IMG/VR virus record: IMGVR_UViG_3300028883_000091
Span: 1 to 36,467 of that record
Reading direction: 5' to 3' (one strand)
Length of the DNA: 36,467 bases
Origin: a virus
A program made the position numbers and the translations under genes. The notes under the pieces are model-generated. The model was not told the DNA's origin. It made no database searches and saw nothing but the letters and a program-made list of their open reading frames with translations. Shown here in pieces: positions 12,004 through 35,526 of the stretch (its first letter is position 1; each line of letters starts with the position of its first letter).

Positions 12004-13050
12004 ATGAATTTTCAGTTCGGCCATACATGGGGACTGCTGAGTGCCGTAGGAGCGCCCGTCAACACAGTGCCGCCTGTCGTCACCGGTGTAGGGTACGTCG
12101 GACAAACGATGTCCACCACAAACGGAACATGGACAGGCGGCGTTGATAGCTACAGCTACCAATGGCAGGCGAACGAGGTCAACATCCTCGGGGCCACGTC
12201 CTCAACCTATGACGTCACTATCGACAAAGAAGGCGCGTCGATTCGATGTGTCGTCACGGCGATCAACGCGGCAGGCTCGACCCCGGCTAACTCGAACGCT
12301 GTTCACAACTGGACGCCGCTGGACGACGATACCAGCCTGGAGTTCCTCCACGATCCGAGCTACGGCGACAGCCTTACGAAGGTCGGGGATCGGGTGAGTC
12401 AAATCGCCGACAGGAGCACAAACGGGTTCGACCTAACCCAAAGCGTATCTGCCGAGCGACCACGAACCGGCTCTGATACCATCGGAGGGCTGAATTGCCT
12501 GGGGTCGCCGGACGCCGAGCGGTGGATGCGCACTACTGCCGCCGTAGCAATGCCGTCGTCCGGAGATCTGGCTACGTTCATCGTGTTCGAAAACACCGGC
12601 CCACCTGCAGGAAACACCGCGTCAATTGTTAGCCAAAGCGGAACAGAAGATTACCAATACCAAGCAGACAGTCCAAGCGATTTCGACGGCAAAACCCAAG
12701 GCGGCGTATGTGAGAGTTTCACGTTGTCGGGGTCACCACACAATGGGCCTTCCGTACATGGCGTGATACTGGATTGGACGGGCGCGGGGACGGTAGCCGT
12801 GAACGTCGACGGAACAGAGCGAGGCTCGGAATCGTACACAACGAAGCTGTCGTCTCCGAACGTGCTTCGACTTGGCCGGAATCGAGGCGAAACGAACGGT
12901 CTTACGGACGCCTGGGGCATGCACGTTGGAACGTCTGATGTGTCCTCTGCGAATGTTGCACGGTACGAAGGGTACCTTGCATGGCGGTATGGCCTTGAAG
13001 ACAACCTCCCGGTAGGTCACACGTACAAATCTTCACCCCCAACAGTCTAA
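12004..13050 (+). CDS. Ig-like plus lectin-domain surface protein 2 (tandem paralogue)
   Basis: 348 residues. ATG 12004 is chosen over upstream in-frame starts because TAAGGAGGTT, overlapping the stop of the previous gene, is an optimal SD, and the N-terminus (MNFQFGHTWGLL) then matches the paralogue. The domain order is the same: Ig-like (GYVGQTMSTTNGTWTG, YSYQWQANE) and lectin-like, ending EGYLAWRYGLEDNL...HTYKSSPPT. The N-terminal region is near-identical in protein but differs at many synonymous sites, while the lectin part has diverged. This points to an old duplication with conserved docking and a changed binding surface. Confidence 0.8.
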   Translation: MNFQFGHTWGLLSAVGAPVNTVPPVVTGVGYVGQTMSTTNGTWTGGVDSYSYQWQANEVNILGATSSTYDVTIDKEGASIRCVVTAINAAGSTPANSNAVHNWTPLDDDTSLEFLHDPSYGDSLTKVGDRVSQIADRSTNGFDLTQSVSAERPRTGSDTIGGLNCLGSPDAERWMRTTAAVAMPSSGDLATFIVFENTGPPAGNTASIVSQSGTEDYQYQADSPSDFDGKTQGGVCESFTLSGSPHNGPSVHGVILDWTGAGTVAVNVDGTERGSESYTTKLSSPNVLRLGRNRGETNGLTDAWGMHVGTSDVSSANVARYEGYLAWRYGLEDNLPVGHTYKSSPPTV

Positions 13051-21417: not shown

Positions 21418-22689
21418 ATGGCATTCGACGTCTACCACAACCCATCAGCCGCGGCCTTGGGTGGCGTTGCCTTCCAAGGTGGTCGCGGCGAATATCAGAA
21501 GTACTTGCAGCAGCATCGGCTCCAGCAGCAGCAGCTTGCCTTGCGTCAACAGCAGATGCGGATCGGTCAACAGCAGTTTGCTCAGGAGATGCAGGAGCGC
21601 GGCCGGCAGCGTGAGTTCCAGACTGAACGCGACCGCCAGCTTCAGGAGTTTCAACTTGAAGAGCTGAACGAACGCCAGCGTATCGAGCAGCAGAACTTCG
21701 AGCACAAGTTCACATCTGCTCAAAAGCTTCGCATGCAGCAGATCCGCCAGGACATTGAGGAAGTCGAGCAGGACGACACGCTGACGCCTGAGCAGAAGAT
21801 GGTCACGAAACAGCGTCTCAAAAGCATGATTTACGGCATGGGCCAACTTCCCATACCGAAAGCGGAATCGCCGTATCCTGAAGGACAGGCCCCCGGCCAA
21901 AACTGGGTGGACCGATCCGGCGCCTTGATGACGCGCGACAGCAAGGGCGACGCAAAGATGCTGGTTCCCCCGCCGAAGCTGACCGATCTGTTCAAGCAGG
22001 CGACAGAGGCGTTGACGACAACTCGATACAACCCGGAAACAATGCAGACTGAAGAGGTCGCGCCGTCCTTTAAGGAGATCAGTGATCGTGTTGAGGAAAT
22101 GATGACCATGCATCGCAAGATGATGGGGCAGCTGGTAGAAGACCCGCGCAATGAATATGACGAAGCGTTGTCGGTGTTTGACGAAGAGCCGCAGTTCGAA
22201 GACGACGTTTTGACGGAAGAGACCGACGCGACGATTCGTCAAGGTCTCATTCCTGGACTGCCAGGCGGTCGCATCCCTGGCATGCCAGACGTTATCCAGG
22301 AGTTCCCGGAAGAAGAAGCGCGTAAGCTTCAACAAGGCAAGCCGGCGAATGGCGGGGATTGGGTTGGTCGTGTGTGGGATATGGATCAGACACGCGCCAA
22401 GCTTCGGTTCCGCGACATGAACGCCGCCGTCATTTCAAGGGCCATGGCACAGATGAATCAGCCAGGCGTCCCCAAGGCCGTTCGTGGCGATCTCCGCGAA
22501 GCGGTTCAAGAACTATTGAAGATCCTGAAAGCCGCTGATTACGAAGTTCCAGCCGAGAACCCACATCAATTTGTCTCTCGCAGCCTAAGCGAAGAAGGGG
22601 TCAAGAAACGCGAGCGTGCAGAAGAGTTGGCGTCGTACCTTGTCGACTTCATCAACAATCCACAACGGTTCGCCGGGGGGAGACAATAA
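21418..22689 (+). CDS. Gln-rich internal virion protein candidate (423 aa)
   Basis: SD AGGAGG overlaps the end of the previous gene. Residues 25-110 are a very Gln/Arg/Glu-rich continuous helix (LQQQQLALRQQQMRIGQQQF...), likely coiled coil. The middle has a Pro/Gly-rich loop (IPGLPGGRIPGMPD, about 276-289). No catalytic motif is seen. The stop overlaps the next start (TAATG). Together with its neighbours it is a candidate for a protein carried in the capsid and ejected to span the cell envelope. Confidence 0.75.
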   Translation: MAFDVYHNPSAAALGGVAFQGGRGEYQKYLQQHRLQQQQLALRQQQMRIGQQQFAQEMQERGRQREFQTERDRQLQEFQLEELNERQRIEQQNFEHKFTSAQKLRMQQIRQDIEEVEQDDTLTPEQKMVTKQRLKSMIYGMGQLPIPKAESPYPEGQAPGQNWVDRSGALMTRDSKGDAKMLVPPPKLTDLFKQATEALTTTRYNPETMQTEEVAPSFKEISDRVEEMMTMHRKMMGQLVEDPRNEYDEALSVFDEEPQFEDDVLTEETDATIRQGLIPGLPGGRIPGMPDVIQEFPEEEARKLQQGKPANGGDWVGRVWDMDQTRAKLRFRDMNAAVISRAMAQMNQPGVPKAVRGDLREAVQELLKILKAADYEVPAENPHQFVSRSLSEEGVKKRERAEELASYLVDFINNPQRFAGGRQ

Positions 22690-25600
22690 TGGGCGATATC
22701 CTTGAACGCCTCAAAGCTAAGTACGGAGCGGCCAAGGCATATGCGCCAGCGTACCAACGTCCCGGCCGTGACATGTTTGAAGAAGGGTATCACGGGCTGT
22801 TGGATTTGAGCACCCAAAGTCGGCGCTGGCTTAGACCGGATGAGCGTGACACCAACGAGCCAATAGGTTTTGTCGAAAATATTGAGCGCGGCATGCCTGG
22901 ACTGTGGCGCAAAACCCCTGTGCTCGGGACAATGGTCGGGGCGGCTGAGGATGAAGACAAGCTGGCGCGATTAAATCGGTTACAGCGGTTTGCGAATGAA
23001 GGGTTCAAGACGACTGCGGACATTCTACAACAGGAAGAAGATGCCAGGGTTCTGGAGGATTACCTTGCACCGCTGCTTGAAGAGCAGCGGCGCGGAAAGA
23101 CGTTTATGGCAAAGGCTGGCAGTGTCGTGGCGGGCTTGCCAAAAACTTTCGGGGAATTCGGCCTTGCCGCCAGCGCTGGTCCGTTGGGTTATTTCGGTCT
23201 ATCTCAGACGATGGCCATGGAAAATATAACGGCCCGCACTCTTGCCAACAAGCTTGAGGGGAAACAGGAATCCGGGCTCAAGACGCTCGTCAAGGCGGAG
23301 ACCGAGGCAGGCATTGAACTACTGACAGAGGCTTTCGTCGGGAGAGTCGCTCGCTGGGGACTGAAAAAGCCGAGGGGTTTGGTAGGTAAACTCGTAAAGA
23401 AGACGAAGGCGGGCCGATCGATCAGTGAGCTGATGGACCGGCCTATTGGTAAGGTGTTGGCCGAAGTCGGTGAGAAGGCAAAGTTTCATGGAGTCCCCGA
23501 AGAGCTGCTCGAAGAGAATGTGGCGGCGGTATTGCGTGCAGGACTGCGTCTCGACGATCAGGAGGGAGACCTTTTGACGCGGATTAAAAACGCCATCCCC
23601 GATCTGGAAGATCAAGCTGCCATGACCTTGGCGTTCGCTCTATTTCCTGGCGCCAAGATTGTTGCTGGGGCAACGGATGTAGCGGCGTCAGCTTTGGAGA
23701 AACGCCGTGCAAAGGAAGCGCTACTATCAGGCGAAGACATCCCTATCGTCATGGCGACAGCCCCTGAAGCCGCCGAACGCATCATAAACGAAGAGCCGTC
23801 GCGCAAGGTGTTTGACGAGGTGTTTCCTGGCGTGCGCTTCAGCCAACGCGAACGCGAGATGGTTCAGGCCTACATGCGCAACATGGCAGAGACCACGGCC
23901 TTGATTCCACGACAGCAAGCGCAAGCCCCCGACGCATTGCAGCCGCCGCAACAGCAGCCCGCCGAGGCCCCCGTACAGGAGGTTCCGGAGCAAGCGTTGC
24001 CAGAAGCCCCTGTAGTGGACGCTACGGCACTTGAAATGGAAGACGTCGCCGACAAAAGCGATTTGGCCCCGCCGCAGGGCGAAGGGTCTGTCGGGATGCC
24101 AGACGTCACACAAGAGGCTGTAGTACCCCTTGAGCCGACGACAGACGACATTGCACGTCAGATACAGGAGAGGGCAGACGAAGGCCCTACAGAGCCCGCT
24201 CTTGGAGCTTTGGGGGCGCTCCCGCAGAAGAAGCGCGCCGGGGCTCCCGACTTCCGCGACGTGTTGCCGCCGGACGTTGTCGGGCGTATTGACAGATCCA
24301 GGGGCGCCAAGCCGCGGGCAGGGCTCAAGGAGCGCCTGGCCAACTACGTGAAGCAAGCAAAAAGTTTGTTCCGCGCACAGCAGCACATACCGAATACGCC
24401 CGTCTATGCGAGCGCCAATGAGTTCTTCCGCTTGGCCAAAGAGATACCGCAAGCATCATCCGACCATGTGTTGCGCAATGTCGCGAGCATTGTCGATGCC
24501 TTGAACGACGACGCCCTGTCGTTGATGGAATACAAGCTTATCATCGACAATCAGCTTGCGGCCATTCAGAGGGGCGAGCCGCTTCGTCACGGTTGGCAGA
24601 GTGAAGCGCAGGTGCAACGGGCTAAAGCCAACATCGACGCATTGGTCGCAGCCAGCCCGGAAGTATCGCAGGCTATCGCGGACAGGACGCGGCTGGTGAG
24701 AAGCTTGACAAAGGACCTGGTTGACCACGACCTCCTTCCAGAGGAGGCTCTTGACAATCCGGCCTATTTCCATCAGCAGGTGTTGAGCAAGATGGAAGAG
24801 CAGCGGATTGCAGACGGCTCAGCCGTCAGGCCAAAGACGAGGGGGTTCCAGAAGAAACGCGTCAAGGGTACGTCACTCGGTCCGGAGTATGACTACAACA
24901 CTTCGTATCTTGAAGCAGAAACGAAATGGATGACAGACGCTGAAATGGAGCTTCGCAAAGAGAAAGCTTTGCGCAATCTTGGCGAGCTGTACGACATCAC
25001 GGACGATCTCAAAGCCGAGTCGGAGCGCACAGACACACCGATTGAGACCTTGATCCCAGAAGGGTACGAAGCGTGGCAGCCTGTCCCCGGCAACTACTTC
25101 TACAAGGCGTTGACTGTTCCGGAACAAGTAATCGAGCAAATCCAAAACGGCACGCTAACAGACATTACCAAACTTCCCAATAGCGTCCGTAAAGTATTGG
25201 CAGTAGGCGGCGCCAGAGATGCGATGATCCTCCCGAAACCTGTCGTCGCTCAATTAGACGCGACCGTCAAGAAACCTTCTCAAGGGATCGCCAATCTCTC
25301 GCAAGAGCTTATGAAGACGTGGAAGGTTTGGACGTTGCTGAACCCCAAGCGGGCGCTTTCATACAATATACGCAACATTACGGGTGACATTGATCCTGTG
25401 ATCGGCGGAGCGCCAGGAGTGCTTGGGCAAGTCAAGGCATCGTTGAGAGAACTACACGGCTACTACTCTGGGAAAAGGCTTAAACTCGACCCGGACGTTC
25501 AGGAAGCCCGTGACCTTGGAGTTATTTCAAGCTCTCTTACTGCCCAGGAAATACCAGACCTTAAAGACTTGGAGATCTTCAAGCGTTTTTATTCGGACGA

Positions 25601-26915
25601 CGTAAGACGGCAAATGTCAAAAGGTGTGATAACGGATTCCGTAAACAAGTACTTTTCAACCGTCAAACGTTGGTCGGAGTTCCGCGAAAGCATGCTCCGT
25701 CTCGCTGCCTACAAGCACTACAAAAAAGCGCTTTCCGAAGGAACTCTTACGCATTACGGCGGATCAAAGAAAGCGGTTGTGGAAGCATTGGCAGCGGAAC
25801 AAGGTGTGGACGTTGCCGCCGCTCACCTCTCTCGAAACCTTCTCGGTGACTATGGCAACATGTCTGTGATGGGCGATCACATGCGCAAGCATGTCATGCC
25901 GTTCTGGAGTTGGATAGAGGTCAACATGAAGCGTTACCCGCGGATGGCAATCAATGCAGTCGAATGGGCCAAGGCCAACAGCAATGATCGCAAGGCGGCA
26001 GTCGCCGCGCTAAGCGTTGCGGGTTTGGCTCAAATCGGGGCGATGTACGGCGCTCAGGCGCTATGGAACCACTTTGTTTTTCCAGACGAAGAAGAACAGC
26101 TCGGGACGTGGGACCGGCAGAACCCGCATATTAACCTTGGAAGAACCGAAGACGGATGGATCCGTGTTTTCCGGAACGCTGGGGCTCTTGGCGATTTCCT
26201 GGAGTTCTTCGGGGTGAACGACCTTGTGAATCTGTTGCCTGAATATATTGACGATCAGGTCGAAGGCGCGGATATCATCAGGGAAATGGCAAAGGCTCCG
26301 ATCAACAAGCTTGCTCAAGCCCTGCGGCCAGACATAAAAGACGGGCTCGTTGGCGTGGTCGGTGGATTCAGCATGTTCCCCGATGTGTTTAACTGGCGTC
26401 GCGTTGACCGTGGCGAAGCAGCGTCCGGCATCGTCGGACTTGCCGACGAATATCGTGAGGTTCGCGGCCGCTTGACGCAAGACGGTTCTCGGGCTCGACC
26501 TAATTACATCGAGCGCAATCTTGTCGGCATCAGCGACCCCCGTCGCAACGCGATGAGCGAGATGTACGCTTTGCGGGAGAAGTTCCTTCGCAAAGAGGGG
26601 AAGGACGCTCCTAACTTCTTCGGCATCAGCCCTGCCCGAAACATGCGCTATGCCGCGATGAACGGCGACTACGACGCATTTGTTGAAGCACGCAAAGACT
26701 ACCTCGCCAAAGGGAAGAGTACGAAGGCATTCCTGTCCGTGCTGAAGCGCCTCGACCCAATTTCGGGAGGAATGTCAAAAGCTCTGGAACGCAAGTTTGA
26801 AAGAGAGTTCCTGAACACGACGCAACTCAAAAAGCTTGAGCTTGCTCGTGACTACGCACGGGAACTGCGGGTTCGGATGTATACGTGGTGGGCGAAGGCG
26901 TCTCAGCCAGAGTAG
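22689..26915 (+). CDS. Giant internal virion/ejection protein (1408 aa)
   Basis: The last and largest late gene; SD GGGGGAG, start overlapping the previous stop. It is modular: an N-terminal region with hydrophobic stretches (about 150-185, GSVVAGLPKTF...FGLAASAGPLGYFGL), a Pro/Gln/Glu-rich linker (about 405-490), a long helical middle, then TWKVWTLLNPKRALSYNIRN (about 877-896), a conserved-looking MPFWSWIEVNMKRYPRM (about 1070) and a hydrophobic helix near 1103-1128. Very large last-gene proteins of podoviruses are ejected to form a trans-envelope channel. No lytic transglycosylase or polymerase motif was found by eye. Large polyvalent-protein-type domains are another possibility. Confidence 0.8.
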   Translation: MGDILERLKAKYGAAKAYAPAYQRPGRDMFEEGYHGLLDLSTQSRRWLRPDERDTNEPIGFVENIERGMPGLWRKTPVLGTMVGAAEDEDKLARLNRLQRFANEGFKTTADILQQEEDARVLEDYLAPLLEEQRRGKTFMAKAGSVVAGLPKTFGEFGLAASAGPLGYFGLSQTMAMENITARTLANKLEGKQESGLKTLVKAETEAGIELLTEAFVGRVARWGLKKPRGLVGKLVKKTKAGRSISELMDRPIGKVLAEVGEKAKFHGVPEELLEENVAAVLRAGLRLDDQEGDLLTRIKNAIPDLEDQAAMTLAFALFPGAKIVAGATDVAASALEKRRAKEALLSGEDIPIVMATAPEAAERIINEEPSRKVFDEVFPGVRFSQREREMVQAYMRNMAETTALIPRQQAQAPDALQPPQQQPAEAPVQEVPEQALPEAPVVDATALEMEDVADKSDLAPPQGEGSVGMPDVTQEAVVPLEPTTDDIARQIQERADEGPTEPALGALGALPQKKRAGAPDFRDVLPPDVVGRIDRSRGAKPRAGLKERLANYVKQAKSLFRAQQHIPNTPVYASANEFFRLAKEIPQASSDHVLRNVASIVDALNDDALSLMEYKLIIDNQLAAIQRGEPLRHGWQSEAQVQRAKANIDALVAASPEVSQAIADRTRLVRSLTKDLVDHDLLPEEALDNPAYFHQQVLSKMEEQRIADGSAVRPKTRGFQKKRVKGTSLGPEYDYNTSYLEAETKWMTDAEMELRKEKALRNLGELYDITDDLKAESERTDTPIETLIPEGYEAWQPVPGNYFYKALTVPEQVIEQIQNGTLTDITKLPNSVRKVLAVGGARDAMILPKPVVAQLDATVKKPSQGIANLSQELMKTWKVWTLLNPKRALSYNIRNITGDIDPVIGGAPGVLGQVKASLRELHGYYSGKRLKLDPDVQEARDLGVISSSLTAQEIPDLKDLEIFKRFYSDDVRRQMSKGVITDSVNKYFSTVKRWSEFRESMLRLAAYKHYKKALSEGTLTHYGGSKKAVVEALAAEQGVDVAAAHLSRNLLGDYGNMSVMGDHMRKHVMPFWSWIEVNMKRYPRMAINAVEWAKANSNDRKAAVAALSVAGLAQIGAMYGAQALWNHFVFPDEEEQLGTWDRQNPHINLGRTEDGWIRVFRNAGALGDFLEFFGVNDLVNLLPEYIDDQVEGADIIREMAKAPINKLAQALRPDIKDGLVGVVGGFSMFPDVFNWRRVDRGEAASGIVGLADEYREVRGRLTQDGSRARPNYIERNLVGISDPRRNAMSEMYALREKFLRKEGKDAPNFFGISPARNMRYAAMNGDYDAFVEARKDYLAKGKSTKAFLSVLKRLDPISGGMSKALERKFEREFLNTTQLKKLELARDYARELRVRMYTWWAKASQPE

Positions 26916-26934: not shown

Positions 26935-26968
26935 AAAAAAGCCCCACAATCCGAAGACCATGGGGCTT
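26935..26968 (-). terminator. Intrinsic terminator of the early operon (also meets late operon)
   Basis: AAGCCCCA (26939-26946) and TGGGGCTT (26961-26968) form an 8-bp stem with a 14-nt loop. On the minus strand the stem is followed by a T6 run (A-run 26935-26940 on plus), a classical rho-independent terminator directly after the stop at 26973. On the plus strand only TTGAGC follows, so it probably works mainly for minus transcripts at this convergent junction. Confidence 0.85.
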
Positions 26969-26972
26969 GAGC

Positions 26973-27227
26973 TTACCGCCATACGTTCAAACACTTCAAT
27001 CCTAACCTCGCTTCTATGACTTCCCTGCTTCGCGTAAGTTGCTTGCCGAGAAGCTTCCCCCGCGCCGATATCGAGCCTGAGCGGCTACTTATTTTGACCG
27101 TTTGGGAACCTGCGTAAATAAGGGCTTCGCCAGCAATCTTGATCTGCACGAGCTTCAGATACTCGTTGGGCATGAATGCTATCGCGCTGTCAACAGTCGG
27201 ATCGTCGGATAGTTTGATGCGTACCAT
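26973..27227 (-). CDS. Small paralogue family member P1 (84 aa)
   Basis: Start ATG 27227 lies in a TAATG overlap with the upstream gene's stop; the longer frame to 27320 is not needed. The N-terminal MVRIKLSDD and the motif MPNEYLKLVQIKI (residues 18-30) match P2 (MPDIVRIRMSDD; TKKEYAKLVEFKI). The common pattern is F/V-x4-Y-x-x-L-x-x-x-K/R-I. The C-terminus has another shared stretch (EVIEARLGL versus DVAKRLGI). It is small, basic and soluble. It is the last early-operon gene. No known family is recognised. Confidence 0.75.
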   Translation of the reverse strand: MVRIKLSDDPTVDSAIAFMPNEYLKLVQIKIAGEALIYAGSQTVKISSRSGSISARGKLLGKQLTRSREVIEARLGLKCLNVWR

Positions 27228-27538
27228 TATACGATATTCCAAGGTGAAGCTTCCCACGGAATTCCAAGGCGCTTGGCAACGTCGCCTTCGTCCTCTGGAT
27301 ATTGTCTCGAACACCACCACGTTAAACGTCCGTGGATGACCGTGGTGTTGCCCTTGTTGTCGGCAATAGTAGTTATCGCTAAATGCCGCTCAAAAACATC
27401 TATCGCTGAAATTCTGTCGTTTATCTTAAACTCCACGAGCTTCGCATATTCCTTCTTCGTAAACCGGACCTCCCGTTTGTCAGTGTCGTCGTCTGACATC
27501 CTGATCCGGACTATGTCAGGCATCTTTGTTGAGATCAT
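27227..27538 (-). CDS. Small paralogue family member P2 (103 aa)
   Basis: ATG 27538 has AAAGG 7-8 nt upstream; ATG 27523 (MPDIVRIRM) is an alternative that aligns better with P1. It contains the shared motif KKEYAKLVEFKI, beta-like strands (HLAITTIADN, TTVIHGRLTWW) and a C-terminal DVAKRLGIPWEASPW. It overlaps the preceding gene by 23 nt and abuts P1. The tandem arrangement P2-P1 suggests duplication. Confidence 0.75.
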   Translation of the reverse strand: MISTKMPDIVRIRMSDDDTDKREVRFTKKEYAKLVEFKINDRISAIDVFERHLAITTIADNKGNTTVIHGRLTWWCSRQYPEDEGDVAKRLGIPWEASPWNIV

Positions 27539-27746
27539 TCAAGAACCTTTGAGCATCATCAATTGCCTGTTGACGCGCTTCCCGTAGCTGGTCCATCTTG
27601 TCGGCCAGCATGTTATCACTCTCGATACCGTTCAGTATTGCCATCGACATCTGATATGCCCGTCGCAATGCAGCCGCCGCTCGGATATCGGGCTCTGCAT
27701 CCTTCATGCGCCGCCATTCGGCGAGCTGCTGTTGTGCTTTGGTCAT
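27516..27746 (-). CDS. Helical hypothetical protein (76 aa)
   Basis: Start ATG 27746 forms an ATGA overlap with the stop of the upstream gene. Upstream GAGG supports it. Almost entirely helical, with heptad-like spacing (QQQLAEWRRMKD, DKMDQLREARQQAIDDAQRF), likely a coiled-coil dimer. No motif for function is seen. Confidence 0.7.
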   Translation of the reverse strand: MTKAQQQLAEWRRMKDAEPDIRAAAALRRAYQMSMAILNGIESDNMLADKMDQLREARQQAIDDAQRFLNDLNKDA

Positions 27747-28075
27747 TCGATTACCTCGTAATGTTGCCTATCCATATCCACAATGCCTCGCCAAGCCACC
27801 GTATTAAGGCATAGGGAGCGTGCAAGCACCAATGTCACGTCTAGCGGCGTAAGCGAAAAACAGGGGGCGCCCCACGTTAGCTTCACGTCCATGTGTCCAT
27901 CCCACCACGACATTCTCACTTTAGCGGGGTGAGCGTCCTCGACTAGGTTAATTGTTACAGGCGTGTTGTTTATCCTCACCTCCATCAGTTTGGCGTATTG
28001 CCTTGGCGTGAAGTAAAGGGCCACCTTGCTGTTTCCTATGTCTATTGGGATCTCTACGTCTGAAGATGCGTTCAT
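27743..28075 (-). CDS. Small paralogue family member P3 (110 aa)
   Basis: The start is uncertain. ATG 28075 aligns the N-terminus (MNASSDVEIPIDI) with P1/P2; ATG 28087 or GTG 28120 (GTGA overlap with the upstream stop) would extend it. It contains the family pattern LYFTPRQYAKLMEVRI followed by strands (TPVTINLVED, AKVRMSWW, MDVKLTWG). The first part overlaps the 27948-28133 gene in a different frame. Homology to P1/P2 argues that this frame is genuinely coding. Confidence 0.65.
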   Translation of the reverse strand: MNASSDVEIPIDIGNSKVALYFTPRQYAKLMEVRINNTPVTINLVEDAHPAKVRMSWWDGHMDVKLTWGAPCFSLTPLDVTLVLARSLCLNTVAWRGIVDMDRQHYEVIE

Positions 28076-28133
28076 ACTCTTTCTCATACCGTTCGCGGTT
28101 CGTGGTTCTGTCTCGATCACCCTTGCCTGCCAT
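27948..28133 (-). CDS. Small basic phage protein (MAGKGD...YERIF type, 61 aa)
   Basis: ATG 28133 has GGAGAG 6-7 nt upstream, the best initiation site in this stretch. The N-terminus MAGKGDRDRTTNRERYEKEY then ERIFRRRD closely resembles a recurrent family of tiny phage proteins with the pattern GKGxxxRPxxxxxYxxxxxxIFGKK. After residue 28 the sequence becomes unlike that family (PNRHRKQQGG...). This is where the reading frame runs through the P3 gene, so the tail is probably a by-product of the overlap. Confidence 0.6.
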   Translation of the reverse strand: MAGKGDRDRTTNRERYEKEYERIFRRRDPNRHRKQQGGPLLHAKAIRQTDGGEDKQHACNN

Positions 28134-28371
28134 CGTTACTCTCCAGTTTCTGCCTGATTTCGCCGACAATCCGGGCGACGTCCTGCTCTGTCCGATGCGG
28201 GTGCGTAATCAGCGAGTTGTACGCGTGAAGGATATCCGCGACCTTGATTCGCTGCTTTGGCGTCAGCGGCGCTTCTGTTTGTCGCATCACCCATTCAATC
28301 GACGTGCCCTGGCTTGTCATGGGCCGCGGGTGCGGCCAAACTGTTCCGTTGTCTAGGCGTATATATCTCAT
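28117..28371 (-). CDS. Hypothetical protein (84 aa)
   Basis: ATG 28371 has AGGAGAG upstream (the same AGGAGAGTAACGA cassette as the 28133 start). The N-terminal YIRLDNGTVWPHP looks like a beta hairpin. The rest is helical (KQRIKVADILHAYNSLIT, DVARIVGEIRQKLE). It overlaps two downstream starts. Function is unknown. Confidence 0.7.
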   Translation of the reverse strand: MRYIRLDNGTVWPHPRPMTSQGTSIEWVMRQTEAPLTPKQRIKVADILHAYNSLITHPHRTEQDVARIVGEIRQKLESNDGRQG

Positions 28372-28396
28372 TCGTTACTCTCCTGGTGGTTGGCAA

Positions 28397-28660
28397 TCAA
28401 TGACACTCGCATAGTCCACCGTTGTACGCATACGGTCCGCCGTGCCCCTGCGGATCGTCGCTGTTGTAGTGTTCGCCGGGAGTGCCGTACCACCCCTCAC
28501 CGTCCCCGCAACAGTCGCACACCGTTACATCGGGGTACTCGTCAGAGTGTGCGTCGAGCCACGCAAGTATCTCACTCGCATCCAACTCCGCTACCGCGTC
28601 GGGCAGATGTGCGATGTTCAGAAATCCGCTGTTTTCGCATCGTGTGCATGTTGTAGCCAT
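28397..28660 (-). CDS. Cys-rich zinc-finger-like protein (87 aa)
   Basis: ATG 28660 is preferred (AGGAGA upstream); the longer frame to 28708 has no SD. It begins MATTCTRCENSGF (CxxC), has CDCCGDGEGWYG in the middle (about 56-67), then a Gly/Asn/Tyr-rich end finishing CECH. The CxxCxGxG-like elements resemble DnaJ-type zinc ribbons, suggesting one Zn site. It may act as a small adaptor protein in the early phase. The partner is unknown. Confidence 0.75.
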   Translation of the reverse strand: MATTCTRCENSGFLNIAHLPDAVAELDASEILAWLDAHSDEYPDVTVCDCCGDGEGWYGTPGEHYNSDDPQGHGGPYAYNGGLCECH

Positions 28661-28690
28661 AATCGTTCTCCTGTTATGTGTTCGGGTTAA

Positions 28691-28746
28691 AGCCCCACCC
28701 GCCACCAAGGCGGGCAGGGCGCGGCCGGGTAGCAGGCCGGGTCGGG
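28691..28746 (-). terminator. GC-rich hairpin with tandem 12-bp repeat
   Basis: CCCGCC (28698-28703) pairs with GGCGGG (28709-28714), loop ACCAA. On the minus strand it is followed by GGGGCTTTAACC, a short T3 tract. GGCCGGGTAGCA and GGCCGGGTCGGG (from about 28723) form a 12-bp direct repeat and give alternative pairings. It lies directly after the stop at 28747, so partial termination or mRNA processing is likely. Confidence 0.5.
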
Positions 28747-29100
28747 CTATTTGCGTTTGCTTCGGGGAGGCGGTCCTGACGCGGTCTCCGGTGCAGGCTG
28801 GGCAGGAACTGAAGCCGGTGCGGGCGGCGGAGGCTGAGTAGCGCTCAGTTGCCGAAGCAGATCGAGCTTCACGGCATGCACGTCCTCTTCAGGCTCGACG
28901 ACATTGCCGTTGTCGTCGACGGATGGGTTGACTCTGTAGATGGTCACGGTTCGCCCGCCGATACATTCAGCAATGATGCTTCTGCCTTCAGTCTTCAGGT
29001 TGAGGATACCTGCGGGGTTCATGTGGTTCCGGGCCTTGCCGGGTTCGACAATGCCGGTTCCCTCAACGAAAGGAATCCAGCCCATTTCAAGCTTAATCAT
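28747..29100 (-). CDS. Hypothetical protein with Pro-rich basic tail (117 aa)
   Basis: ATG 29100 with AGGAG about 12 nt upstream. The N-terminal 80 residues look beta-rich (WIPFVEGTGIVEPGK, GRSIIAECIGGRTVTIYRV) and include an acidic loop. The last 35 residues are Pro/Ala-rich and end SKRK, a flexible basic tail that could contact nucleic acid. No family is recognised. It lies between a zinc-finger gene and the SSB-tail gene. Confidence 0.7.
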   Translation of the reverse strand: MIKLEMGWIPFVEGTGIVEPGKARNHMNPAGILNLKTEGRSIIAECIGGRTVTIYRVNPSVDDNGNVVEPEEDVHAVKLDLLRQLSATQPPPPAPASVPAQPAPETASGPPPRSKRK

Positions 29101-29113
29101 GTTGCTTCTTTCT

Positions 29114-29135
29114 CCTGTGTGTGTGTTTGTGTGTG
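29114..29135. repeat. GT microsatellite between early genes
   Basis: A (TG)n tract interrupted by one extra T (TGTGTGTGTGTTTGTGTGTG) fills the short gap between two minus-strand genes. It is a simple repeat prone to slippage and could alter SD spacing of the 29100 gene. Confidence 0.7.
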
Positions 29136-29903
29136 TTAGAACGGGATGGAAGACTCGTCGGCATCGTCATCCCATGCGTGTTCGACTGGTTCGGGGTCCA
29201 CCGCTTTGCGTTTGCGCGGCGGTGTTATGTGGACGTCGCCCTGTTGAAGAGAACGAATCGCCCTCTCGCACATAGCAACCACTTTAGGATCGCTCTTCTG
29301 CTCCGCCAGCGGGATGCCATAGAACTTCATGTTTCGCATCTTCAGGTATTCATTCTGAAGCCTGCCAGACTGACTCGCCGTCATGGACCGTTGCAGCAAC
29401 TCTTGTCGTCGCTGTAGCGTCATAACGACCTTCTTCGGGTAGGTCGCCTTGTTGTACCGCATGATCACGTCACCACTTGGGCAGGTACATGGGGTAGAGA
29501 CGACATACACCCATCGCCGTATTTGCTCGAATTCGGGGATTGCCGTGATCAACTCACCGTCCTCCAAGCGGTGGTTTGTGTGGACGACGAGGAACCTCCG
29601 GCCCCGGTTCTCACAGAAGCCGCAGTACGTGTTCAGCGCATCCAATTCAAAGGATGCACGCTTCTCCCTCAGCAGCTTGTAATACACCGCCTGAATCTCA
29701 AGCAGCCTCGGCTTATCATATGCGGCATACTGCTCCTTCTCCCGACGCTGATCGATGATTCGATGAAACGCCTCGATGAACGTACTCTCGTCGACGTCCG
29801 TCTCATCCATCCACGACTGATAGCCCTCGGGCGAGTCGATCTTGCCGAACAACGCACGGTATCGGGCGAGGAACCATTGCTGTGACTTGTCTGATACTGC
29901 CAT
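29136..29903 (-). CDS. Early protein with Cys cluster and SSB-like C-terminal tip (255 aa)
   Basis: ATG 29903, SD AAGGAGG. Helical N-terminus (1-80); a likely zinc site from CGFC (about 94-97) and PCTCPSG (about 138-144); a helical, basic C-terminal part (RRQELLQRSMTASQSGR). The tail is WDDDADESSIPF, an acidic run ending Ile-Pro-Phe, the hallmark of the SSB C-terminus that docks many replication and repair proteins. The body is not an OB-fold SSB by eye. A replication-accessory or helicase-loading role, or competition for SSB partners, is inferred. Confidence 0.8.
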   Translation of the reverse strand: MAVSDKSQQWFLARYRALFGKIDSPEGYQSWMDETDVDESTFIEAFHRIIDQRREKEQYAAYDKPRLLEIQAVYYKLLREKRASFELDALNTYCGFCENRGRRFLVVHTNHRLEDGELITAIPEFEQIRRWVYVVSTPCTCPSGDVIMRYNKATYPKKVVMTLQRRQELLQRSMTASQSGRLQNEYLKMRNMKFYGIPLAEQKSDPKVVAMCERAIRSLQQGDVHITPPRKRKAVDPEPVEHAWDDDADESSIPF

Positions 29904-29912
29904 TGTTCCTCC

Positions 29913-30275
29913 TTAGAATCCGGCAAACGTGTTCGGATTGACCTTGACCCCCATTACAGAGTCAAGGTTCCAGCCGCCCTTGAACCAGCTCTCTTCATCA
30001 AGCTCGACACTGACGCCGTAGCCGAACAAACTGACATTCGTGCGTCCGAAGCCATGATGGCCCAAATACAGATCAACAAAGTCACCCCTGATTTTGGCCT
30101 TTAGCAATTCTGTGTACATCGGAACCGGGATGCGCAGGGTTGCGTCATGTCTATGCCACTCACGGCTTGGGATCGGGAGATGTTCCGGAACCGCATAGGG
30201 AACATTAACGGGAGCAAATGTACTCGGCACCGGAAGCCTCTTCTTCCACGTAACCGGAACTTCGACCGTGTCCAT
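29913..30275 (-). CDS. Small paralogue family member P4 (120 aa)
   Basis: ATG 30275 with an excellent SD (AGGAGG, overlapping the end of P5). N-terminus MDTVEVPVTWKKR parallels P5 (MVEVPVVWRKR). Core motif LRIPVPMYTELLKAKIRGDF (res 47-66) carries the family pattern YxxLLxxKI. The C-terminal ESWFKGGWNLDSVMGVKV matches P5 (KPWLAEGWRLSKVMGIYV). An N-terminal Pro-rich insertion (RLPVPSTFAPVNVPYAVPEH) is extra. No known fold is recognised. Confidence 0.8.
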   Translation of the reverse strand: MDTVEVPVTWKKRLPVPSTFAPVNVPYAVPEHLPIPSREWHRHDATLRIPVPMYTELLKAKIRGDFVDLYLGHHGFGRTNVSLFGYGVSVELDEESWFKGGWNLDSVMGVKVNPNTFAGF

Positions 30276-30284
30276 ACATACCTC

Positions 30285-30557
30285 CTAGAATGGGATGTCA
30301 TCCACATAGATGCCCATGACCTTGCTAAGCCGCCAGCCTTCCGCCAGCCACGGCTTATCTGCAATGCTGGCACGATGATCACCAAACACAAGCACGCCGT
30401 CGCAAACAGTCATAAGGGCAAACTCGTTGCGTATTTTACGGGCCAATAGGTCGGTGTAGAACCTGGCGGGCACACTGACAGTGCCATCTTTGTGCTCCAC
30501 ATTGTGGATGTACCCTCTTGGCGTCCGCTTTCGCCACACAACCGGCACCTCAACCAT
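30285..30557 (-). CDS. Small paralogue family member P5 with DDIPF tail (90 aa)
   Basis: ATG 30557 is chosen since MVEVPVVWRKR aligns with the P4 start and the gene overlaps the upstream stop by 8 nt. Motif TVSVPARFYTDLLARKIRNE (about 23-42) is shared with P4 and more distantly P1-P3. The C-terminus KVMGIYVDDIPF ends like bacterial SSB (DDIPF). A small protein carrying an SSB tip suggests interaction with SSB-binding host proteins, but this is inferred from the last residues alone. Confidence 0.8.
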   Translation of the reverse strand: MVEVPVVWRKRTPRGYIHNVEHKDGTVSVPARFYTDLLARKIRNEFALMTVCDGVLVFGDHRASIADKPWLAEGWRLSKVMGIYVDDIPF

Positions 30558-30990
30558 TGAGCCGCTGGTTACGCTCTCGGAGTTCTCTGAGTTCGCGGTC
30601 GGCGTCGGACTCTTCAGGTGTGTCATACTCAATCTCATCTTCCCAACGGTCGCCGTTGAGGTAGGTTGTGGCGTGAGGGATGTATCCGTCTTGCCAGGGC
30701 CGGTGATGTTCGGCGCGTTCCATGACGTCGCCGATGATCATCTCGGCGCGTGCGTTGAGCTTGCGCCGCTTCCAGACGTCCTTGGCCTTCTTTTTGTTGA
30801 TCTTCCGTGGCCACACATCCCAGAAGTGCTCAAACCTGTCAGGCAATCTAACGGCCTCTGACGCCTTTTTTGGCTTAGATGGACTTGGGATAGGGTCGCC
30901 GAACAAATCGCGCTCAGTGGCCGCGGGAATGGCCTGTACGGCAATTTCGATCGGTTTCGCGCAATGCGGGCATGTGATCGTAGTCGTCAT
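30550..30990 (-). CDS. Replication-accessory protein (zinc CxxC plus FW..YPRK-type domain, 146 aa)
   Basis: ATG 30990 forms ATGA with the stop of the upstream regulator and has GAGG 8 nt before it. N-terminal CPHC (7-10) is a half zinc site. Residues about 50-125 (FEHFWDVWPRKINKKKAKDVW ... GYIPHATTYLNGDRWEDEI) match the C-terminal domain often found in phage replication proteins of the O/DnaD-like class, with the pattern F..FW..YPrK...A...W and iPh..tyLn..rW.De. A role in loading the helicase or organising replication is plausible. Confidence 0.75.
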   Translation of the reverse strand: MTTTITCPHCAKPIEIAVQAIPAATERDLFGDPIPSPSKPKKASEAVRLPDRFEHFWDVWPRKINKKKAKDVWKRRKLNARAEMIIGDVMERAEHHRPWQDGYIPHATTYLNGDRWEDEIEYDTPEESDADRELRELRERNQRLNG

Positions 30991-31202
30991 CCTGCTTTCC
31001 TCGCGTTGAAGTATGACTTGAATCGGTGTTCCGCGGCATTGCTCCACGACCTTCGACCAAGCTCTAGGTCAGAGATGTAGGAGGGCCGGTACCCTATGGC
31101 GTCGGCAAGCTGACGCTGTGTGATGCCGCGGCTTATGCGGATGGCGCGCCAGTGCTCACCAGTCCGCTTGTGGTCAATTACCTGTTTCGTCTTGTAGTAC
31201 AT
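30987..31202 (-). CDS. XRE/Cro-type helix-turn-helix regulator (71 aa)
   Basis: The HTH is visible at residues 24-52: RGITQRQLADAIGYRPSYIS followed by DLELGRRSW, with the standard Q-x-x-L-A and the SYIS-x-L-E-x-G recognition region. At 71 aa it is Cro-sized, with no C-terminal oligomerisation or protease domain. It overlaps RusA by 29 nt and the downstream gene by 4 nt, so it is co-transcribed inside the recombination/replication operon rather than divergent from it. It may repress early transcription later in infection. Confidence 0.85.
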   Translation of the reverse strand: MYYKTKQVIDHKRTGEHWRAIRISRGITQRQLADAIGYRPSYISDLELGRRSWSNAAEHRFKSYFNARKAG

Positions 31203-31797
31203 CGTCTGTCGGGTCTCCTGTCTGTCTTTGAAACGCGAAGGAAATTGCTTGGCGCAATGCGTCCAAGAGCCGCTTCCAAATTGGAATCTTGATCTCGTAG
31301 ACCGACACCTTTACGCCGGGGCGTGTGCCGTAGACCTTGGTCGCGACGATAGCCAGAACCTGCGCGTCATCGTTGAACACCACGCCATTCATCGCGTCCA
31401 TGGTGGAACGGATGAGCTTGTCAAGGTCCGGGGCCTTGGTCCCTTCCATGTCGACCGCCCATTCCTTGAGCTTCCCGGCATTCTTGCCGGTGCCAAAGTG
31501 GTTCTTCGGTCGCTTGAGGAAGAACTCCATATGAACGCAACAACCACGGGCAATCGGACCGCGAAGAGCCATAGCGGTAAACGCCTTCCGCTTGACCTCT
31601 TTCTCCCATGCCTTCTGCCCCTTGCTCGCAGACGTGACAACGGTCTGCGGCCTGAACTCGCGTCCGGCCAGGATCTCGCGACACAACTGATGGAGCTTCG
31701 CCTTCGACCGCGGCCAGTTCACAACAAACGCAGTGTGCGACCCCTTCGGGCGAGGCTCCACGTTGCCGACGTAAAACTCAATTGTCTGAGGGTGCAT
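31174..31797 (-). CDS. rusA: RusA-type Holliday junction resolvase
   Basis: 207 residues, longer than classical RusA (about 120) through an N-terminal extension (1-60) and a C-terminal tail (175-207). The family core is clear: KAPDLDKLIRSTMDAMNGVV (121-140; acidic D124, D126) followed by FNDDAQVLAI (141-150; D143, D144) and KVYGTRPGVKVSV. RusA dimers cut four-way junctions symmetrically. In phages they clear branched replication and recombination products before packaging. It overlaps its upstream neighbour by 20 nt. Confidence 0.9.
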   Translation of the reverse strand: MHPQTIEFYVGNVEPRPKGSHTAFVVNWPRSKAKLHQLCREILAGREFRPQTVVTSASKGQKAWEKEVKRKAFTAMALRGPIARGCCVHMEFFLKRPKNHFGTGKNAGKLKEWAVDMEGTKAPDLDKLIRSTMDAMNGVVFNDDAQVLAIVATKVYGTRPGVKVSVYEIKIPIWKRLLDALRQAISFAFQRQTGDPTDDVLQDETGN

Positions 31798-34851: not shown

Positions 34852-35526
34852 TTATACTGCTGGCACAAGGCACCACGACTCATAGAGCCGTTGCGGCGTC
34901 AGCACGGGGACGCTCAGGTCAAACCCAAGCATCGGCAACAATTGCGCATACGTCATGTCCGGAGGCAACCCGAACACCCCTGCAGTGTACGGGTCGCACA
35001 CTTGGTAGATGTTCAGATCCGTCATGGGCTCCCAGCATGCCAAAGAAATTCCGAACAATTGCCGGAACGCCCAGTATGGAAGCTCAGAGCAGTACATCAG
35101 CTCGCCGCCAGGTATCCAATACGGCCTCCATGAAAAGTCATACGGCTCGCCTACTCGCGTCAAGGCGATCTCTGCCCATATCTGCATGAGTCCAGGTACG
35201 TAGTCAGAGAACCATAGCTTTTTCGCCTCAAACCAGGGACATCGGGCTTCCCATTCTTCCCATGGCGTCAGGCAGACGAACGGCGCGCCGCCGCCGGCTT
35301 CAATGACGTAGGCTTCTCCAGCGATCACATACACGATGCCGCAATGCGTTCGGTTAGAGCCATAGACAGCTTCGAGCATGGGTCCAAACGTCCCGATGAT
35401 CTGGCCGTCCGGCGTCATGATCGGCGGCGGGGCATCCTGCCAGACGATATGTCCGGTTTGGGGTTCATAAGCCTGAGTCGCGAGTCCTGCCAGTAGCAGG
35501 ATCAACAGTGCGATGAGATGTTTCAT
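34852..35526 (-). CDS. Secreted permuted-papain (YiiX/DUF830-like) hydrolase, probable lysin
   Basis: 224 residues. The N-terminus MKHLIALLILLLAGLATQA is a Sec signal peptide, cleavage after about 19. It then shows the circularly permuted NlpC/P60-like order: catalytic His in HCGIVYVIAG (H61), acidic partner in YVIEAGGG (E76), and the nucleophile Cys later in YCSELPYW (C146). These enzymes cut peptide or amide bonds, and secreted phage members may degrade peptidoglycan. Unusually it lies in the early, minus-strand operon, not the late operon. A role in superinfection exclusion or another amidase function cannot be excluded. Confidence 0.8.
   Translation of the reverse strand: MKHLIALLILLLAGLATQAYEPQTGHIVWQDAPPPIMTPDGQIIGTFGPMLEAVYGSNRTHCGIVYVIAGEAYVIEAGGGAPFVCLTPWEEWEARCPWFEAKKLWFSDYVPGLMQIWAEIALTRVGEPYDFSWRPYWIPGGELMYCSELPYWAFRQLFGISLACWEPMTDLNIYQVCDPYTAGVFGLPPDMTYAQLLPMLGFDLSVPVLTPQRLYESWCLVPAV

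Follow-up and report, generated by a model that had tools for sequence, protein, structure and literature searches.

In the early region of one phage genome five small genes, P1 to P5, share a short sequence motif, and this raises the question of whether they are copies of a single ancestral gene and what their products might do. One virus record, 36,467 bases long, makes up the window analysed. Its plus strand carries genes for a large terminase, a major head protein and tail proteins together with a SU10-like portal scoring just under the Pfam cut-off (27.8 against 30 bits), and the virus is a tailed phage of a poorly sampled lineage. On the minus strand a leftward early block holds RecE, RecT, RusA, a helix-turn-helix protein and a replication initiation protein, with P1-P5 downstream of them (Table 1). 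An ORF of the early region at 34852-35526 (minus strand) showed a weak match to Peptidase_C92, a permuted papain-like amidase (26.8 bits, cut-off 27). At the left end of the contig, at 234-297 on the minus strand, a type II hammerhead ribozyme (RF02276) was identified, complete with its CUGAUGA and GAAA core and scoring 52.9 bits (cut-off 37); hammerheads are already known from phage intergenic regions (PMC3088659).

Table 1. Positions in the window of the five small genes and of the features around them.
Feature	Position	Strand	Length (aa)	pI	Remarks
Intrinsic terminator	26939..26968	-			after P1; strong, with 13 pairs and U-run; kept in near relative L002
P1	26973..27227	-	84	10.1	group A paralogue; final gene ahead of terminator
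P2	27227..27538	-	103	6.7	group A paralogue
ORF between P3 and P2	27516..27746	-	76		without motif
P3	27743..28075	-	110	5.5	group A paralogue
P4	29913..30275	-	120	6.5	group B paralogue
P5	30285..30557	-	90	8.9	group B paralogue
Replication initiation / primosomal-type protein	30550..31047	-			upstream of P5
Small helix-turn-helix regulator (HTH_3)	30987..31202	-
RusA-like Holliday junction resolvase	31174..31797	-

P1-P5 look like real genes at these coordinates. The positions, the strand and the motif copies given in an earlier, sequence-only reading were correct when checked again, and in all five ORFs the annotated frame has the highest codon-usage score. The genes had been called dispersed, which is a loose term since P1/P2 and P4/P5 form adjoining tandem pairs. 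The stop of P2 and the start of P1 overlap by one base (TAATG), the 76 aa ORF overlaps P2 by 23 bases and is itself overlapped by P3 by 4 bases, while P5 starts inside the 3' end of the replication gene and is followed after ~10 bases by P4. Kinship of the 76 aa ORF to P1-P5 was not detectable in pairwise Smith-Waterman alignments. Another ORF, at 27948-28136 on the minus strand (MAGKGDRDRTTNRERYEKEYERIF...), lies in a different frame and overlaps the first 128 bases (the 5' third) of P3; it is KGDRDRT-like, gave no family match in PHROGs or Pfam and presumably resembles a common small phage protein, and P3 may represent an insertion into its 3' end. Among the small unknown ORFs of the early block the only clear family match was that of an 84 aa ORF at 28117-28371 (minus strand) to phrog_3472, of unknown function (E 9e-9).

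When the five proteins were aligned pairwise two paralogous groups appeared, A (P1, P2 and P3) and B (P4 and P5). Smith-Waterman scores within group A were 73 for P1-P2, 62 for P2-P3 and 45 for P1-P3 against shuffle means of 23-26, and these scores were reached by none, none and one of 500 shuffles, respectively. P4-P5 scored 108, reached by 0/500 shuffles, with a similarity above that of shuffles along the whole length and an insertion of ~15 aa in P4. The aligned identities are 31% (P1-P2), 31% (P2-P3), 30% (P1-P3) and 41% (P4-P5), and blastp gave E values of 5e-8 for P1-P2, 2e-6 for P2-P3 and 1e-11 for P4-P5. The elements VEVPV.W and W..GW.L..VMG, said to be common to P4 and P5, and RLG, said to be common to P1 and P2, are indeed present. 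With identities of 30-41% the duplications are probably old, and families A and B would have come from genes duplicated locally within the phage's leftward early operon. The repeated duplication proposed earlier is supported within the two groups, of three and two genes.

Each of P1-P5 has exactly one copy of the motif Y-x-[KED]-L-x-x-x-[KR]-I, where 0.05 occurrences of the strict form would be expected by residue shuffling in the six frames of the window. A sixth strict match lies at 27422-27451 on the plus strand, opposite the P2 copy, and no others were found in the six frames. A loose form of the motif, present in 5/5 of P1-P5, was absent from all 197 control ORFs (small ORFs taken by a greedy pick from 14 phage loci). 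The occurrence of the motif is not due to chance. The five copies align without gaps over ~26 residues, a region forming a strand and then a helix in the P5 model, so that a rare motif stands in the same sequence context in all five proteins, as it should in members of a single family. Since the copies within a group are not independent, the fair question is whether a motif this rare would be common to one ancestor of A and one of B.

The sequence-only reading had placed all five genes in one family and named profile comparison between the groups as the test that could refute it. No significant similarity between A and B was found in this way: hhalign gave a probability of 0.3% (E 0.18), the aligned segment being the motif in register, and cross-group HMM searches gave ranks from 51 to 553 among the ~4,400 listed ORFs, no better than noise. 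The six cross-group Smith-Waterman pairs scored 22-31 with shuffle means of 22-27, scores that between 25 and 416 of the 500 shuffles attained, and for the full-length profile alignment 21/400 column shuffles were equally good. There is slightly less than an even chance that A and B are unrelated, in which case small proteins of one phage would twice have acquired a beta strand and, after it, an amphipathic helix with Y..L...KI. This would agree with the lack of significant profile or HMM scores between the groups and with sequences that differ outside the motif block, but fits poorly with a strict motif that is rare by chance and absent from the controls.

The alternative of one ancestor for all five, with A and B diverged past profile detection and nothing retained but the start strand and the motif block of strand and helix, draws on this same rarity and on anchored alignments. 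Across the groups the gapless 26-residue block beats 4,990 of 5,000 column shuffles (10 being as good), with an anchor picked post hoc because of the motif. In a profile alignment anchored at the protein start, under a scoring scheme picked after the alignment had been seen, P1, P3 and P5 were equalled by 1, 2 and 1 of the 197 controls, respectively (about the top 1%), but P2 by 25/197 and P4 by 36/197, which is not above controls. A start strand VE[IV]P[IV] is common to P3, P4 and P5. Against one ancestor speaks the weakness of the unanchored tests described above. Altogether the sequence evidence for homology between A and B is suggestive, at an estimated few-per-cent level, and not enough to establish homology. 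The rarity of the motif and the start-anchored alignment keep a single family possible, and we regard it as a reasonable suggestion, somewhat more likely to be wrong than right, that A and B go back to a remote common ancestor.

A structural model of P5, built from two sequences (pLDDT 79.4, pTM 0.67), shows a beta-beta-alpha-beta arrangement starting with strands at residues 2-10 and 22-29 and a helix at 31-42, followed by strands 49-52, 55-58 and 61-64, a short helix 69-72 and strands 75-80 and 83-86. The Y and L of the motif fall within helix 31-42, directly after strand 22-29. The P2 model, from three sequences, reached a pLDDT of only 43.8, too low for the model to be used; its start reads strand-strand-helix like that of P5, to which little weight can be given at such confidence. 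P5, and less surely P1-P4, would thus be compact beta-beta-alpha-beta proteins whose first helix has the motif along one face, packed against the preceding strand, with the conserved Y, L and I as putative core residues. As core residues these would make the motif structural and not a binding signature, and a packing signature of the strand-helix unit would be more likely than an active site. No relatives of P1-P5 were found that could provide a conservation pattern to tell core from surface. A fold search with P5 in PDB and BFVD gave no significant match; a sliding clamp, matrix proteins and the Dmd antitoxin appeared only as low-Z rows at noise level and were rejected as fold relatives.

The earlier statement that no described family matches these proteins was borne out, as nothing exceeded the curated cut-offs in Pfam and NCBIfam, nothing in PHROGs was significant and the PADLOC anti-phage defence HMMs gave no match to P1-P5. 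No relatives were found in IMG/VR (searched with P2, P3, group A and group B), in GTDB genome contigs (group B), in INPHARED phages (P2, P3 and P5) or in plasmids (P4); P1 entered these public collections via the group alignment, as did P4 apart from its single search against plasmids. Remote relatives may escape the HMM and pattern tools, so that their absence is unproven. A P3 match at 12548-12763 (E 0.003) lies in another frame within a long ORF and was put down to chance, which calls for caution with weak E values in this window.

A 1408 aa protein encoded at 22689-26915 on the plus strand gave no Pfam or PHROGs match. It has relatives of 28-35% identity in IMG/VR and one of 44% whose contig was binned with a Planctomycetia MAG, a sequence match that hints at the host group. 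In contig L003 the matching stretch makes up the end of a 4384 aa ORF with helicase-like sequence by eye, and in contig L019 it falls in a 1969 aa open-ended ORF. The near relative L002 shares 94% identity with residues 1-449, the part of the protein that it matches, and ends inside P1, with the last codons of P1 and the terminator kept. When the group profiles were run against 392 genomes from the phylum to which L019 belongs and the whole records of the distant relatives, only this P1 end was found. The distant relatives to which the 1408 aa protein had led did not show such an early region: neither RusA, used on three of them, nor the group profiles gave a match.

Nothing in the sequences of P1-P5 identifies an activity or a particular partner. 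Their small size, early position, duplication and charge divergence would fit, by analogy with known phage early genes, an accessory partner-binding role. Their early action might lie in binding host proteins or proteins of the phage replication machinery as partners, and the spread in pI (5.5 to 10.1) could reflect copies diverged to suit different partners, a proposal that we put forward tentatively. The whole explanation preferred here, that of duplicated accessory early proteins in two families, A and B, with the steps on fold and partner binding included, we hold to be evenly balanced between right and wrong. That P1-P5 instead serve replication or recombination as accessory factors binding DNA or ssDNA is improbable: it would be in keeping with an operon of replication initiator, RusA, RecT and RecE and with the strongly basic P1, but P2, P3 and P4 are neutral or acidic and P5 has no significant fold match. 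Residues 13-88 of P2 do match the winged helix of Pfam Rep3_N (PF01051) weakly (E 0.003), but at 18.4 bits against a gathering cut-off of 22.4 and with no match for its paralogues P1 and P3, and P2 was rejected as a Rep3 initiator with a WH1 domain.

The outcome is that these undescribed small phage proteins fall into two real paralogous groups, ordinary in kind, with a single five-member family as a possible reading. As it stands the locus adds two uncharacterised families without database relatives from a poorly sampled phage lineage. Should the five be one family, a phage would here have made several early effectors out of one small fold, a compact example of such expansion that might also yield new inhibitors of the host or of defence; we consider it unlikely that all five form one undescribed fold family which grew, in a single phage lineage, into early effectors that each suit a partner of their own in host or phage. 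Tailed phages carry duplicated small early accessory genes in host-takeover and anti-defence loci. P1-P5 differ from these in that no sequence or fold relation was found to any described member, but resemble them in lacking database relatives and in being short, close-packed, tandem-duplicated and fast-diverging.
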